The notes below the pieces were generated by a model that was not told the DNA's origin, did no database searches, and worked only from the letters and a program-made list of their open reading frames with translations. Shown piece after piece: positions 1,907 through 5,667 of a stretch of 7,072 nucleotides of DNA; position 1 is the stretch's first letter; each line of letters begins with the position of its first letter. A program made the position numbers and the translations under genes. The stretch lies in contig JAIVFU010000235.1 in NCBI GenBank assembly GCA_020829485.1, positions 1 to 7,072 of the forward strand. The letters run 5' to 3'. The DNA is from Nostoc sp. CHAB 5834. Its GTDB lineage: Bacteria; Cyanobacteriota; Cyanobacteriia; Cyanobacteriales; Nostocaceae.

Positions 1907-4219
1907 ATGGTCAAGCGATCGCTCGAAGCATCAGTTACCGGAATTCAACAAGCTAAAAAAGCGTTTGCTCATAAGGGGTGGACACAAGAAAATTTGGCTT
2001 TTGAAGTCAACTTAAAGACTCGCCAACCAATTTGGCGGTTTTTTAGTGGGCGTTCGGTTGAGCGTCATATCTTTATAGAAATTTGTTCTGTGTTGTCGTT
2101 GAATTGGCGGGAGATTGCGGCTAATCCTCCAGAAGAATTCCCTGAATCAAAAGAACTTGGTGCTGCTGAATTTTTAGATATTGATGCTCTAGTACAACAA
2201 GTGCGATCGCAACGCTTTGACAAAATTCAAGACCAGTGTGGCACTTTGCAGTTATTAGATGTTAGTCGCCCCGTTAGAATCGACGACATTTACATAGATG
2301 TCAACATTTTGGAGGAGATTGCAAGCCTTCAGTGGTTAGAGTTTTCTGACTTGCAAAAGTTTACATCAAAAGAATTTGATCACTTTGGTTTAGGTGAAGT
2401 ATCCCAAACACAAATGGCGGGGATCACGGCAGTTCAAACTTACTCAAAGCTACGGGTGTTGGGTAAACCGGGAGCAGGTAAAACCACTTTTTTACAACAT
2501 CTGGCGATTCAATGCAACCGAGGGAGATTTGCTGCAAATCGGGTTGCCATTTTTGTCACCTTAAGAGATTTTGCCGACGAAACGAGAGTTGCAGGAGAGT
2601 TCAATTTACTCAACTATATTTGCAAAGAATTCCTCACCTGTGGAATTTCAGATCCATCTGTGCTTGAAACTTTGTTGTTGTCAGGCAGAGTGTTGCTGTT
2701 GCTGGATGGATTAGATGAAGTGCTTCATCAACAGAGCATTGGTGTCGCCAATGAGATTCGCAGATTCTCTGAAAAGTATCAAAAGAATATATTTGTCGTC
2801 ACCTGCCGCACGGCGGCTAAAGCTTTCAACCTCAGACGCTTTACAGATGTTGAAATTGCCCCATTTAGTCAAGACCAAATTGTTGCTTTTGCTCAGAAAT
2901 GGTTTACAGCACTTACAAAAACGAACATCCAGAATAAACAAGAACAGGCAATTGAGTTTATTAAGAAACTAGATTTAACCGAAAACTTACAATTCCGTAG
3001 ACTTGCCGTCTCCCCCTTGTTTTTACATCTTGTCTGCTGGGTTTTTCATCACCAGAACAAATTCCCAAACCAAAAAATTGCGTTTTATAAGCAATGTTTA
3101 GACCTTCTCCTGGGCAAATGGGATGAAAGTAAAGCAATTGAGCGGGATGAAGTGTACGAAGGTTTCTTAGTATCACAAAATCTGAAGTTGCTGAGTCAGC
3201 TTGCTAGCGCGACATTTGACCAGGGTAATTACTTTTTTGAACAACGCATTGTTGAACAATACATTAGCGATTATATCTGTGATTTACCGAATGCTTCGAC
3301 GGAACCAGAGGAATTGCAATTAGATAGTGAAGGGGTACTTCAGGCGATAGAGTTACAACATGGATTACTAGCAGAACGAGTGCGGGGAATTTTCTCCTTC
3401 TCTTATTTGACGTTTCAAGAATATCTGACTGCTCGAAAAATCGTTGCCAGTTATAATTTACAACCATTAGAACGACCGTTAGAACGTCTGGTGAGTCATA
3501 TTACTGAACCCAGGTGGCGTGAAATCTTTTTGTTAACTGCTGCCATGCTGCGGAGTGCAGATTTCTTAGTACTGTTGATAAAGCAAGAAGTTGATGCGCT
3601 AGTGGCTGAAGATCCATATTTGCAAAAATTTTTAACTTGGGCAAGTCAGCCCCAACCCTTGGGGACGCTGCACCAATGGGGAAGTCAAAAGTCTCTTGCC
3701 GCTCCTGTGCCTGCTGCAATTCGGGCGTTTTATCTTGCTCTGGCTAGGACTCCTCACCTTACCCCGTACTTTGCCCTTGTCTGCATCTTCGATCAAGATA
3801 TTTTTTTGGATGCGGCATTAGATAACCTAGTAATGGAATGCAAATCTAATTTTGCCGATGCCCATGCCTGCGACGATGCTTTGAGTTATGCTTTAGCGAT
3901 CGCTCAAGATGCTGGCTTACATCAAGCTTTACAACAACTTAAAGACCTACTGCCCGATCCAGAACAAAGTAGAGAAAGCATTCAGACATGGTGGCAAACA
4001 AGTTATCCTGCTTGGATAGAACAGTTAAAAACTGCGATCGCCAAGCATCGAAACATTGAGCATCACTGGTACTTCAGCCCACAGCAACAGCAAGTATTGC
4101 AACAATATTACGATGCCAATCAGTTGCTTATCGATTGCCTTAATAGCAACTGTGAGATCACAGACGTTGTGCGGCAGGAGATTGAAGCTAGTTTGTTGTT
4201 GCCGAGTCAGCACTCCTAA
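1907..4219 (+). CDS. HTH-NACHT STAND ATPase, bacterial NLR-like (probable anti-phage defence)
   Basis: A 770-residue protein. Residues 3-72 form a helix-turn-helix-like domain typical of cyanobacterial NACHT proteins (KRSLEAS, GWTQENLA, TRQPIWRFFSGRSV, then FIEICSVLSLNW). Residues about 180-375 are the NACHT ATPase: Walker A GKPGAGKTT at 186-194, Walker B with LLLLDGLDE at 263-271 (D267, D270, E271), an arginine in the VVTCR sensor motif at 301, and the P370-containing VSPLFLHL helix. The winged-helix-like part ends with FSFSYLTFQEYLTAR at 496-510, a classic NACHT signature. Residues about 520-770 are helical and probably sense the trigger. Experimentally studied bacterial NACHT proteins protect against phages; that role is inferred here. 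No nuclease, TIR or protease effector is fused, so the HTH-like domain may be the output. The family start MVKRSL is kept. The ribosome site is weak. A HIP1 site overlaps codons 3-6. No partner gene is adjacent, and cruF converges downstream. Confidence 0.93.
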   Translation: MVKRSLEASVTGIQQAKKAFAHKGWTQENLAFEVNLKTRQPIWRFFSGRSVERHIFIEICSVLSLNWREIAANPPEEFPESKELGAAEFLDIDALVQQVRSQRFDKIQDQCGTLQLLDVSRPVRIDDIYIDVNILEEIASLQWLEFSDLQKFTSKEFDHFGLGEVSQTQMAGITAVQTYSKLRVLGKPGAGKTTFLQHLAIQCNRGRFAANRVAIFVTLRDFADETRVAGEFNLLNYICKEFLTCGISDPSVLETLLLSGRVLLLLDGLDEVLHQQSIGVANEIRRFSEKYQKNIFVVTCRTAAKAFNLRRFTDVEIAPFSQDQIVAFAQKWFTALTKTNIQNKQEQAIEFIKKLDLTENLQFRRLAVSPLFLHLVCWVFHHQNKFPNQKIAFYKQCLDLLLGKWDESKAIERDEVYEGFLVSQNLKLLSQLASATFDQGNYFFEQRIVEQYISDYICDLPNASTEPEELQLDSEGVLQAIELQHGLLAERVRGIFSFSYLTFQEYLTARKIVASYNLQPLERPLERLVSHITEPRWREIFLLTAAMLRSADFLVLLIKQEVDALVAEDPYLQKFLTWASQPQPLGTLHQWGSQKSLAAPVPAAIRAFYLALARTPHLTPYFALVCIFDQDIFLDAALDNLVMECKSNFADAHACDDALSYALAIAQDAGLHQALQQLKDLLPDPEQSRESIQTWWQTSYPAWIEQLKTAIAKHRNIEHHWYFSPQQQQVLQQYYDANQLLIDCLNSNCEITDVVRQEIEASLLLPSQHS

Positions 4220-4321
4220 TGCCCAATGCCCCTTCATTTCGCTGTAACTTTGAGCCTAGCTACAGAGATTTCTGGTGGTTCAATAGACCTCTTAGCATAA
4301 GTCGAATAGACCCCCCTTAAT

Positions 4322-4340
4322 CCCCCCTTATAAAGGGGGG
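4322..4340. terminator. GC hairpin CCCCCCTT/AAGGGGGG inside the 126-bp MITE
   Basis: A perfect 8-bp stem (4322-4329 with 4333-4340) and a 3-base loop. On the plus strand it follows the NACHT gene by about 100 bases, but only a few T's follow the stem, so termination is possible rather than clear. It is symmetrical enough to act on both converging transcripts. Confidence 0.4.
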
Positions 4341-4356
4341 AAATTTGAAATCTTGC

Positions 4357-4381
4357 CCCCTCCCCTTCACAAGGGGAGGGG
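4357..4381. terminator. GC hairpin CCCCTCCCCTT/AAGGGGAGGGG holding the cruF stop codon
   Basis: A perfect 11-bp stem (4357-4367 with 4371-4381) around a CAC loop. On the minus strand the cruF TGA (4369-4367) falls at the loop and stem edge, so the ribosome terminates inside a very stable hairpin. There is no T-run directly after it on the minus strand. Its main effect may be mRNA 3' stability or blocking read-through from the NACHT gene. Confidence 0.4.
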
Positions 4382-5263
4382 TGATTCAACGATTTTTGCA
4401 AGAGGTCTAATGGGAACTTGGACAGGTGTAGATGAGCCTTTCAACCACAGCAGTACTGCGGGAGTGACACCCAGCAACAAGCCTAGCAACACGGGTACAA
4501 AGAATCCAGCGGTTAAGCTCATGACTGTAGCGAAACCAAAATTACTTAAATAAACTGCAAAAGGTATATTAAGTTGCGATCGCTCCCAGTTAATTGGATT
4601 ATTTCTCCACAACAGTGCAGTCACAGCCATAAATACTGAGCTAGTACCCAGCCACCCCGCAAAGTTTTGGTAAGGCATTCCAAAGAAGGGGCCTGGTTGT
4701 TGCCAATACCAAAAGGGCAGGGAAGTTTGGCTCATTGCCGGATCGAGAACAAAATCCCAGGAGGTTAGTAATAAAGCACCCAAAGCGATCGCACTTATAT
4801 GCCGCCACAAGTTGGGTTTTTTGTCCACTTCTAAACCTGCGCGTGCCAGCAAGTAAGAAACAAATCCCAAATAAAACCACGACAAGGGAATTGTAAATGG
4901 GACTAAACCCGCAATCTTATAACCTAAACCGCTTAGGTAACTATAATGACCAAATGGAAAACCAGTACTGGTTCCTAGTAATTCACTTCCTAGAGAAATA
5001 AATACTGATGGCAACAGAAATGCTAAGGCGCGACTTAAACCCAAAATCCGCGTGGCATACAAGAAAACACCTGCCGCGCCTAAAATCATATAAACTACAC
5101 CGCCTCCTGCCATACTCCATTGGATGGCAGTTTTTCCAACCTCGGATAAGTTAAAAATTACTTGGGCATTAGGTACAACCAGTAGTATTCCTACCAATCC
5201 AAATACTGTTGACACGATATGACCAATGAGGCTTACGCGTTCAGCAATAACAAGTTGTCTCAT
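4367..5263 (-). CDS. cruF: Carotenoid 1',2'-hydratase (gamma-carotene hydratase) CruF
   Basis: A 298-residue integral membrane protein of the DUF422 carotenoid family. The best marks are GSELLGTSTGFPFGHYSY (92-109), SWDFVLDPAM (168-177) and PGPFFGMPYQNFAGW (190-204), set among about seven hydrophobic segments (roughly 11-31, 50-70, 76-96, 116-140, 153-168, 206-218 and 236-274). CruF adds water to the psi end of gamma-carotene, giving the 1'-hydroxyl that precedes 2'-O-glycosylation in myxoxanthophyll (myxol glycoside) synthesis in cyanobacterial membranes. The glycosyltransferase cruG, often a neighbour, is not in the window. The start ATG has AAAAAGG seven bases upstream, a good site. The ending is odd: residues 286-298 (RPLAKIVESPLPL) and the stop come from the MITE at 4284-4409, so the native tail has been replaced after a Pro-rich segment. 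All family motifs precede this point, so activity is probably kept. A second MITE lies 66 bases upstream. Confidence 0.93.
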   Translation of the reverse strand: MRQLVIAERVSLIGHIVSTVFGLVGILLVVPNAQVIFNLSEVGKTAIQWSMAGGGVVYMILGAAGVFLYATRILGLSRALAFLLPSVFISLGSELLGTSTGFPFGHYSYLSGLGYKIAGLVPFTIPLSWFYLGFVSYLLARAGLEVDKKPNLWRHISAIALGALLLTSWDFVLDPAMSQTSLPFWYWQQPGPFFGMPYQNFAGWLGTSSVFMAVTALLWRNNPINWERSQLNIPFAVYLSNFGFATVMSLTAGFFVPVLLGLLLGVTPAVLLWLKGSSTPVQVPIRPLAKIVESPLPL

Positions 5264-5329: not shown

Positions 5330-5338
5330 GCATTTATT
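5330..5338. repeat. Left target-site duplication of the 320-bp MITE (GCATTTATT)
   Basis: This 9-mer abuts the left end of the element at 5339 and is repeated exactly at 5659-5667, just outside the right end. A perfect 9-bp duplication marks a transposition event and fits IS4-family chemistry. Confidence 0.8.
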
Positions 5339-5387
5339 CTGACTTTTCACGTTATGTGGAAAAGCCAGGAAAAACCTAACCCCCTAA

Positions 5388-5412
5388 CCCCCTTCCCTAC
5401 CAGGGAAGGGGG
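5388..5412. repeat. Hairpin CCCCCTTCCCT/AGGGAAGGGGG in the outer MITE
   Basis: A perfect 11-bp stem (5388-5398 with 5402-5412) and an ACC loop. It is similar in design, though not in sequence, to the hairpins of the other two miniature elements here. Confidence 0.6.
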
Positions 5413-5437
5413 AAAATTCAAAGTCTCTCTCCTAAAA

Positions 5438-5606
5438 GGCTACGGTGTACACACAAGTCTTTAAGAGTTGCGCCACAGGCTTTTGATCCCCCCAACCCCC
5501 CTTTTTAAGGGGGGCAAAAACCTCTCAAAGTCCCCCTTTTTAAGGGGGATTTAGGGGGATCTAGGATGATTTTGGTTTTCTAGAAAAATGTGTGTACACC
5601 GTAGCC
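5438..5606. mobile_element. 169-bp MITE with 18-bp perfect ends, nested in the outer MITE (inner element)
   Basis: GGCTACGGTGTACACACA at 5438-5455 is exactly inverted at 5589-5606. TAAAA flanks both ends (5433-5437 and 5607-5611), the likely 5-bp target duplication. Removing the element and one TAAAA restores TCTCTCTCC-TAAAA-GGAGAGAGA in the outer element, a perfect 9-bp stem with a 5-base loop, so the insertion went into a hairpin loop. There is no coding frame. The transposase family that uses these ends is not identified from sequence alone. Confidence 0.82.
5496..5548. repeat. Two C-rich/G-rich hairpins in the inner MITE
   Basis: CCCCCCTT/AAGGGGGG (5496-5503 with 5507-5514) and CCCCCTT/AAGGGGG (5532-5538 with 5542-5548), each with a TTT loop. 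The first stem is identical to the stem at 4322-4340 in the 126-bp element, which suggests that this hairpin module is shared between unrelated miniature elements. Confidence 0.6.
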
Positions 5607-5658
5607 TAAAAGGAGAGAGAAATAGAAGTGAGGTTTTCCAGATACCGTGAAAACTCAG

Positions 5659-5667
5659 GCATTTATT
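5659..5667. repeat. Right target-site duplication of the 320-bp MITE (GCATTTATT)
   Basis: An exact copy of 5330-5338, adjoining the right end of the outer element at 5658. Confidence 0.8.

Follow-up and report, generated by a model that had tools for sequence, protein, structure and literature searches.

A miniature element of a Tn5-like family nested at the hairpin axis of an older one in Nostoc, and a preference of the family for palindrome centres

The window, by which we mean the whole stretch of 7,072 nucleotides of Nostoc sp. CHAB 5834 DNA analysed here, contains two nested miniature elements. Very probably, a CTGA-ended element inserted first and a second element entered later at the axis of a hairpin carried by the first, the family of this second element preferring the centres of palindromes. 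Comparison with the genomes of relatives demonstrated the separability of the two units, their order, their target duplications, their parent insertion sequences (ISs) and the palindrome-centred insertion.

The outer element is bounded by an exact 9-bp duplication, GCATTTATT, read directly at 5330..5338 and 5659..5667. Within it lie 25-nt arms, the left at 5339..5363 (plus strand, beginning CTGACTTTTCACG) and the right at 5634..5658 (minus strand), with a complementarity of 88%; to this extent the letters are as a preliminary description of the window had given them. The insertion begins 66 bp upstream of the start of a minus-strand gene (4367..5263) for a carotenoid biosynthesis protein (Pfam Caroten_synth). 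The nearest relatives of this protein come from Nostoc records, with identities of up to 99% (80 loci returned), and the site was compared in the seven nearest Nostoc loci of the 80 (L001-L006 and L068). Nostoc sp. FACHB-973 (L001) has no insertion and one copy of GCATTTATT against two in the window, and so provides the clean empty site that the preliminary description had proposed to look for. The alignments of L003, L004 and L005 to the window end at about 5274 and are uninformative on the insertion.

Some other features of the locus were noted. The bases around GCATTTATT have received three different insertions, namely that of the window, another, distinct miniature element within the same short run of bases in L002 and L068 with an apparent flanking TA duplication, and a third, unrelated insertion in L006, also upstream of the carotenoid gene. 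Just downstream of that gene (4310-4385) another C/G-rich hairpin-like repeat pair was seen by eye, and positions 1907-4219 encode a 770-aa protein with NACHT and NCH2 domains. A search of the window against Rfam at gathering thresholds gave no match.

The outer element also occurs on its own. In Nostoc sp. UHCC 0926 a plasmid carries a copy without the inner unit (L081), and 22 of the 29 outer-family end pairs in the fetched loci belong to solos 124-147 bp long; many of these loci were fetched for their resemblance to the UHCC 0926 copy. Using a shorter end pattern, we found 54 pairs, with exact target duplications of 10 bp in 21 and of 9 bp in 9, a duplication with one mismatch in 7 and none in 17 (some of these pairs being mis-joined ends). 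Solo copies carry the same hairpin that surrounds the inner unit in the window, uninterrupted, albeit with some loop and arm changes. Together with the empty site, they establish that there are two separable mobile units and that the outer came first and the inner second, both as originally proposed. The absence of any other copies, or of relatives in which the units come apart, had been named as fatal to that proposal; copies and an empty site both exist.

The interior of the outer element consists of a two-hairpin repeat, GACCTAACCCC...GAGAGAGGT, some 87 bp long. In the window this core ((G/A)ACCTAACCCC...GAGGT, 5373..5634, plus strand) is split by the inner element, and its second hairpin, CCCCCTTCCCT / AGGGAAGGGGG, lies at 5388..5412 (plus strand). 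Among 20 hand-picked core-only matches, the core was associated with at least two kinds of ends besides CTGA. Under such other ends (L272-L291, L068 and L196), it was seen with AGCG..TTCT and TATA flanks, and with AGCCATTTTCAAT... ends; one CTACGG element contains it as well. A search of 53 genomes with one exact pattern for a core-less, TA-flanked host element gave none. In a further locus (L106, 1425-1731), a CTGA element has a different insertion near the second hairpin; this insertion is bounded by GGGCGTGTTTTCAAA ends and contains the GATCCCCCC repeat.

For the inner unit the preliminary description had recognised 18-nt perfect arms (5438-5455 and 5589-5606) and had taken TAAAA (5433-5437 and 5607-5611) as the target duplication. 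These letters are present, but comparison of copies moves the boundaries. In 26 copies with an exact duplication abutting CTACGG, the preceding letters are other than GG in 10, and GG before plus CC after is found in only 9. Since GG is not constant before CTACGG, GG/CC must belong to the target; the inner ends are therefore 16 bp here and the duplication is the 9-bp CCTAAAAGG, not TAAAA. The element is thus a non-autonomous unit of 165 bp with Tn5-like IS ends (5440..5604, plus strand). Its left end, CTACGGTGTACACACA (5440..5455, plus strand), is followed by AGT as in the IS, its right end is at 5589..5604 (minus strand), and the two copies of CCTAAAAGG lie at 5431..5439, on the axis of the host hairpin, and at 5605..5613. 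Across the same 26 copies the duplications measure 9 bp in 9, 10 bp in 6 and 11 bp in 11.

The symmetry of the inner arms extends past TAAAA as TCTCTCTCC / GGAGAGAGA, giving arms of 39 nt (5417-5455 and 5589-5627) that are 85% complementary, because the target of the insertion was itself a hairpin. The inner unit of the window lies within this TCTCTCTCC-TAAAA-GGAGAGAGA hairpin, whose left arm is at 5424..5432 and right arm at 5612..5620 (both plus strand). The preliminary description had omitted the host hairpin, and its presence at the target explains the position of the inner insertion.

The inner end was found in all seven related genomes searched (a reversed-pattern control gave 0 in each), and end-to-end or near-complete matches to the outer element were found in the same seven, which argues that neither element is a chance pattern. 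In a sample of 148 genomes from the order, 15 contain the exact 19-mer of the inner end; a 20-mer from this end had no exact match in viral contigs. The top relatives of the inner element in the seven genomes are 91-93% identical to it and, given also the 88% complementarity of the outer arms, the earlier suggestion of fairly recent activity is weak. Within the inner element, a GATCCCCCC...GGGGGATC repeat (5485..5561, plus strand) has many partial matches in relatives that are confined to those positions. By eye, the interiors of CTACGG-ended miniature elements are of no fewer than six kinds, among them arrays of tandem repeats of about 21 bp.

The preliminary description had proposed a search for full-length ISs sharing each end. 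For the inner element, ISs of about 1487 bp share 19-bp ends, CTACGGTGTACACACAAGT, and the spacing of full-length pairs is 1486-1508 bp in 12 of 13 cases and 1683 bp in the remaining one. The family was placed from intact IS copies. One of these (L245) encodes an intact 480-aa protein, and the IS4-family model NF033590 scored 376.5 bits with L245 and 383.5 bits with L242 (cut-off 160). Comparison with Tn5 transposase chains gave 1.6e-37 over residues 38-469 of the 480, with the catalytic region aligned, and Pfam DDE_Tnp_1 was borderline on the inner parents (23.6 and 22.0 against a cut-off of 23); two open frames of a broken IS copy (L142) had no Pfam match. By eye, the L245 protein has the Y-(2)-R-(3)-E-(6)-K motif as YTWRWRIEQLFATLK, which is the IS4-family signature according to PMC2266710. 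The same source describes the IS50 subgroup by an end consensus, CW------Y---CA-A--W-, a length of 1350-1550 bp and target duplications of 8-9 bp. CTACGGTGTACACACAAGT matches all fixed positions of this consensus (by eye) and the length of 1486-1508 bp fits the range, but the duplications, of 9-11 bp, run longer than 8-9 bp, and we therefore file the family as Tn5-like within IS4 and not in the IS50 subgroup.

The likely parent of the outer element, judged from its sequence, is an IS of 2096 bp (L230) with 26-bp ends, a 10-bp target duplication and an intact 486-aa transposase. Its ends are nearly shared, differing from the left outer end of the window at two positions. The transposase model (NF033590, 331 bits), the YREK motif (by eye, YTYRWRIEEYHKILK) and the duplication of about 10 bp all place L230 in the IS4 family, bearing out the IS4-type transposition that had been suggested for the outer unit; the family in fact covers the inner unit too. 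Against the IS50 consensus, the outer ends have GT, not CA, at positions 13-14 (CTGACTTTTCACGTTATGTG). Both elements of the window resemble Tn5-like IS4-family ISs, with 27% identity between the transposases of the two parents. Both are also short, without a transposase gene, and present in many copies with target duplications and terminal inverted repeats (TIRs) matching those of ISs, nearly rather than exactly for the outer unit, as expected of MITEs. A search of 53 genomes with a parent transposase fragment gave any match in 27 and a strong one (E < 1e-25) in 9, and no match in four close relatives of the window (G001, G002, G004 and G007). In two loci (L240 and L214), full-length CTACGG/CTACCG ISs lie inside or beside further ends of the same kind.

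The nested arrangement has arisen repeatedly. In six CTGA elements (those of the window, L084, L119, L133, L194 and L203) the same hairpin is occupied by a CTACGG element, although in L194 the two flanking duplication copies do not match exactly. The inner interiors among the six are of three kinds, indicating at least three separate insertions. A single composite spreading as a unit is therefore ruled out for the six as a set; three of the cases have the same interior type and could be partly related. Three or four layers are visible in all, with demonstrated duplications only in the outer and inner ones.

How general is insertion at a hairpin centre? The fetched loci contain 74 distinct inner end pairs. 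We excluded 39 that have no exact duplication of at least 8 bp, some of them mis-joined or mutated and 7 of them among the 13 full-length-spaced pairs, and asked of each remaining copy for a stem with a score of at least 7 centred no more than 2 bases from the middle of the duplication. Such a stem was found on the duplication in 22 of the 35 copies, whereas positions drawn at random from those flanks gave one in 0.57% of 2800 trials. The outer family, whose transposase is related and whose copies come largely from the same genomes, served as a control, and there only 2 of 29 copies reached the threshold (0.69% of 1600 random positions). Likewise, composition-preserving shuffles of the arms were beaten (p<=0.05, with a milder mismatch penalty) by 25/35 inner but 2/29 outer copies. 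When left and right flanks of different copies were combined, 16.5% of 1056 reached 7, because a few stem families recur; in a stricter, deduplicated test against such swapped flanks, 17 of 33 were observed to do so. The 33 are clusters of the 35 copies after merging alike distal flanks, two being pairs of orthologous loci. As loci were chosen by similarity to the window or by their paired ends, the sample is not a random one.

The full-length copies behave similarly. Exact duplications flank 6 of the 13 full-length-spaced pairs, and stems scoring at least 9 are present in 5 of these 6, the exception being L142, which is among the 13 of 35 inner sites below the threshold. All five have stem sequences other than that of the window. 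Indeed, the target stems include CTCTCTCC, CCCTCCCCTT, CCCCCCTT, CTCTCCCAAG and CCCCCGGCTT, and the inner 7-mer of the left arm takes nine different forms among the qualifying sites, the left arms being mostly pyrimidine and the right arms mostly purine. Statistically, therefore, the inner family favours the centres of palindromes in which pyrimidines prevail in the left arm and purines in the right. We infer that the choice lies with the transposase itself, which would read either a duplex of two-fold symmetry or an extruded hairpin. In one locus (L093, 1503-1793), a CTACGG element contains a hairpin of the CCCCCCTTAAAAAGG type at whose centre lies an element with CAATACGGTTCAGTTAAGG ends. 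These ends resemble those of IS4 itself, and from this single case a second family may share the hairpin-centre preference.

Several other explanations could be considered. The entire unit folds as one long hairpin (z -9.6), and the inner arms continue past TAAAA at 85% over 39 nt, as if the whole 320 bp were one element with long imperfect inverted repeats and TAAAA/TAAAA merely a mismatch in its arms. This is almost certainly wrong, since solo outer copies retain the hairpin without the inner unit (the ground on which we rejected it), the inner unit is found in other stems and other hosts, and its ends are common to full-length ISs. Alternatively, the nesting could be real and the hairpin context incidental, a product of hairpin-rich Nostoc intergenic DNA or of a spread of the inner unit by recombination among hairpin repeats that resemble one another. 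Both of the most frequent target types do occur as uninterrupted hairpins in the fetched loci (not deduplicated), a CTCTCTCC or CCCTCCCC stem is common to many targets, and the rate in swapped flanks is appreciable. Nevertheless, the rarity of stems at random nearby positions and in the outer family, the coincidence of the axis with the centre of the duplication and the five full-length copies in stems unlike that of the window make such an origin improbable.

A different question is what the transposase would recognise. There is about an even chance that it reads a linear, two-fold symmetric duplex consensus (a pyrimidine tract, a CCTnnnAGG-like centre and a purine tract) with no hairpin or cruciform, which would be one mechanism within our best explanation and not its denial. 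Of the 15 positions in each arm, 10 in the left have a pyrimidine frequency of 0.80 to 1.00 and 8 in the right one of 0.00 to 0.14, and a 9-bp target that is preferred by Tn5, and is best among similar sites, is described in PMC1525189. The excess of complementarity over composition-matched shuffles and the variety of left-arm 7-mers tell against a simple consensus, yet both are compatible with recognition of a symmetric duplex. A bolder and distinctly less probable idea, which we put forward tentatively, is that the enzyme reads DNA shape, namely the centre of extruded hairpins or cruciforms in almost any pyrimidine/purine palindrome. Were this so, hairpin-bearing miniature elements would become landing pads for later elements, giving nested dolls whose cores and ends recombine freely, in line with the occurrence of one core under different ends and of one kind of end around different cores.

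Our preferred history, with the outer element first and the inner at its hairpin axis, runs as follows. A CTGA-ended miniature element entered upstream of the carotenoid gene, duplicating GCATTTATT, as the empty site attests; its mobilisation by a Tn5-like IS4-family transposase is suggested by the near identity of its ends to those of the parent IS. Afterwards, a CTACGGTGTACACACA-ended element, which probably stems from another Tn5-like IS, about 1487 bp long, landed at the axis of the CTCTCTCC-TAAAA-GGAGAGAG hairpin and duplicated its 9-bp centre, CCTAAAAGG. As Nostoc miniature elements carry hairpins, the hairpin-centre rule would steer new insertions into old ones, producing nested elements in dispensable DNA.

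Tn5 transposase is widely used and has a loose target choice. A relative that chooses palindrome centres would illustrate the way in which target selectivity arises in an IS4-family enzyme, and the inner family supplies dozens of natural insertion sites, with the outer family, lacking the preference, as a built-in control. The same preference could account for the nesting of Nostoc intergenic repeats. In Nostoc punctiforme, Elhai et al. reportedly described in 2008 small dispersed repeats that are nested, some within Nostoc miniature transposons, with units of 21-27 nt and no known enzymes; for the elements described here, TIRs, target duplications and parent ISs are identified.

Among the systems that come closest is ISRm22 (IS4 family, IS4Sa subgroup), which inserts at the palindromy axis of REPs in Sinorhizobium meliloti (PMC1525189, PMC2266710). 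Its copies likewise lie on the axis of extragenic palindromes, but it has 6-bp repeats and one REP consensus, whereas the inner family has a Tn5-like transposase, 9-11 bp repeats, several hairpin sequences in place of a single conserved REP, and mostly miniature copies. Strongly conserved target arms are also noted for some IS4-subgroup elements (PMC2266710, section 7). IS50/Tn5 (IS4 family, IS50 subgroup) is alike in its homologous transposase, in ends that fit the consensus and in a length (1487 bp within 1350-1550), and differs in that the inner family has duplications of 9-11 rather than 8-9 bp, a palindrome-axis preference and a cyanobacterial host (PMC2266710). IS1397, ISKpn1, IS621 and ISPpu9/10, which we set beside the inner family by description, also insert into repeated extragenic palindromes (REP/PU) and are specific to the REPs of their hosts (PMC1525189). 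In Coxiella burnetii, IS1111 integrates in the palindrome of a miniature element, QMITE2, much as in the window, although that case concerns IS1111 at two sites and the present one an IS4-family miniature element whose hosts are of several kinds (PMC10969869). PMC2246112 has no mention of palindrome, hairpin or Nostoc, and among the matches listed in a search of the open-licence literature, no title or abstract opening reported a Tn5-like cyanobacterial family at palindrome axes. Insertion of ISs at the axes of REP palindromes is thus already known; what is new is a Tn5-like family that does so across many hairpin sequences.
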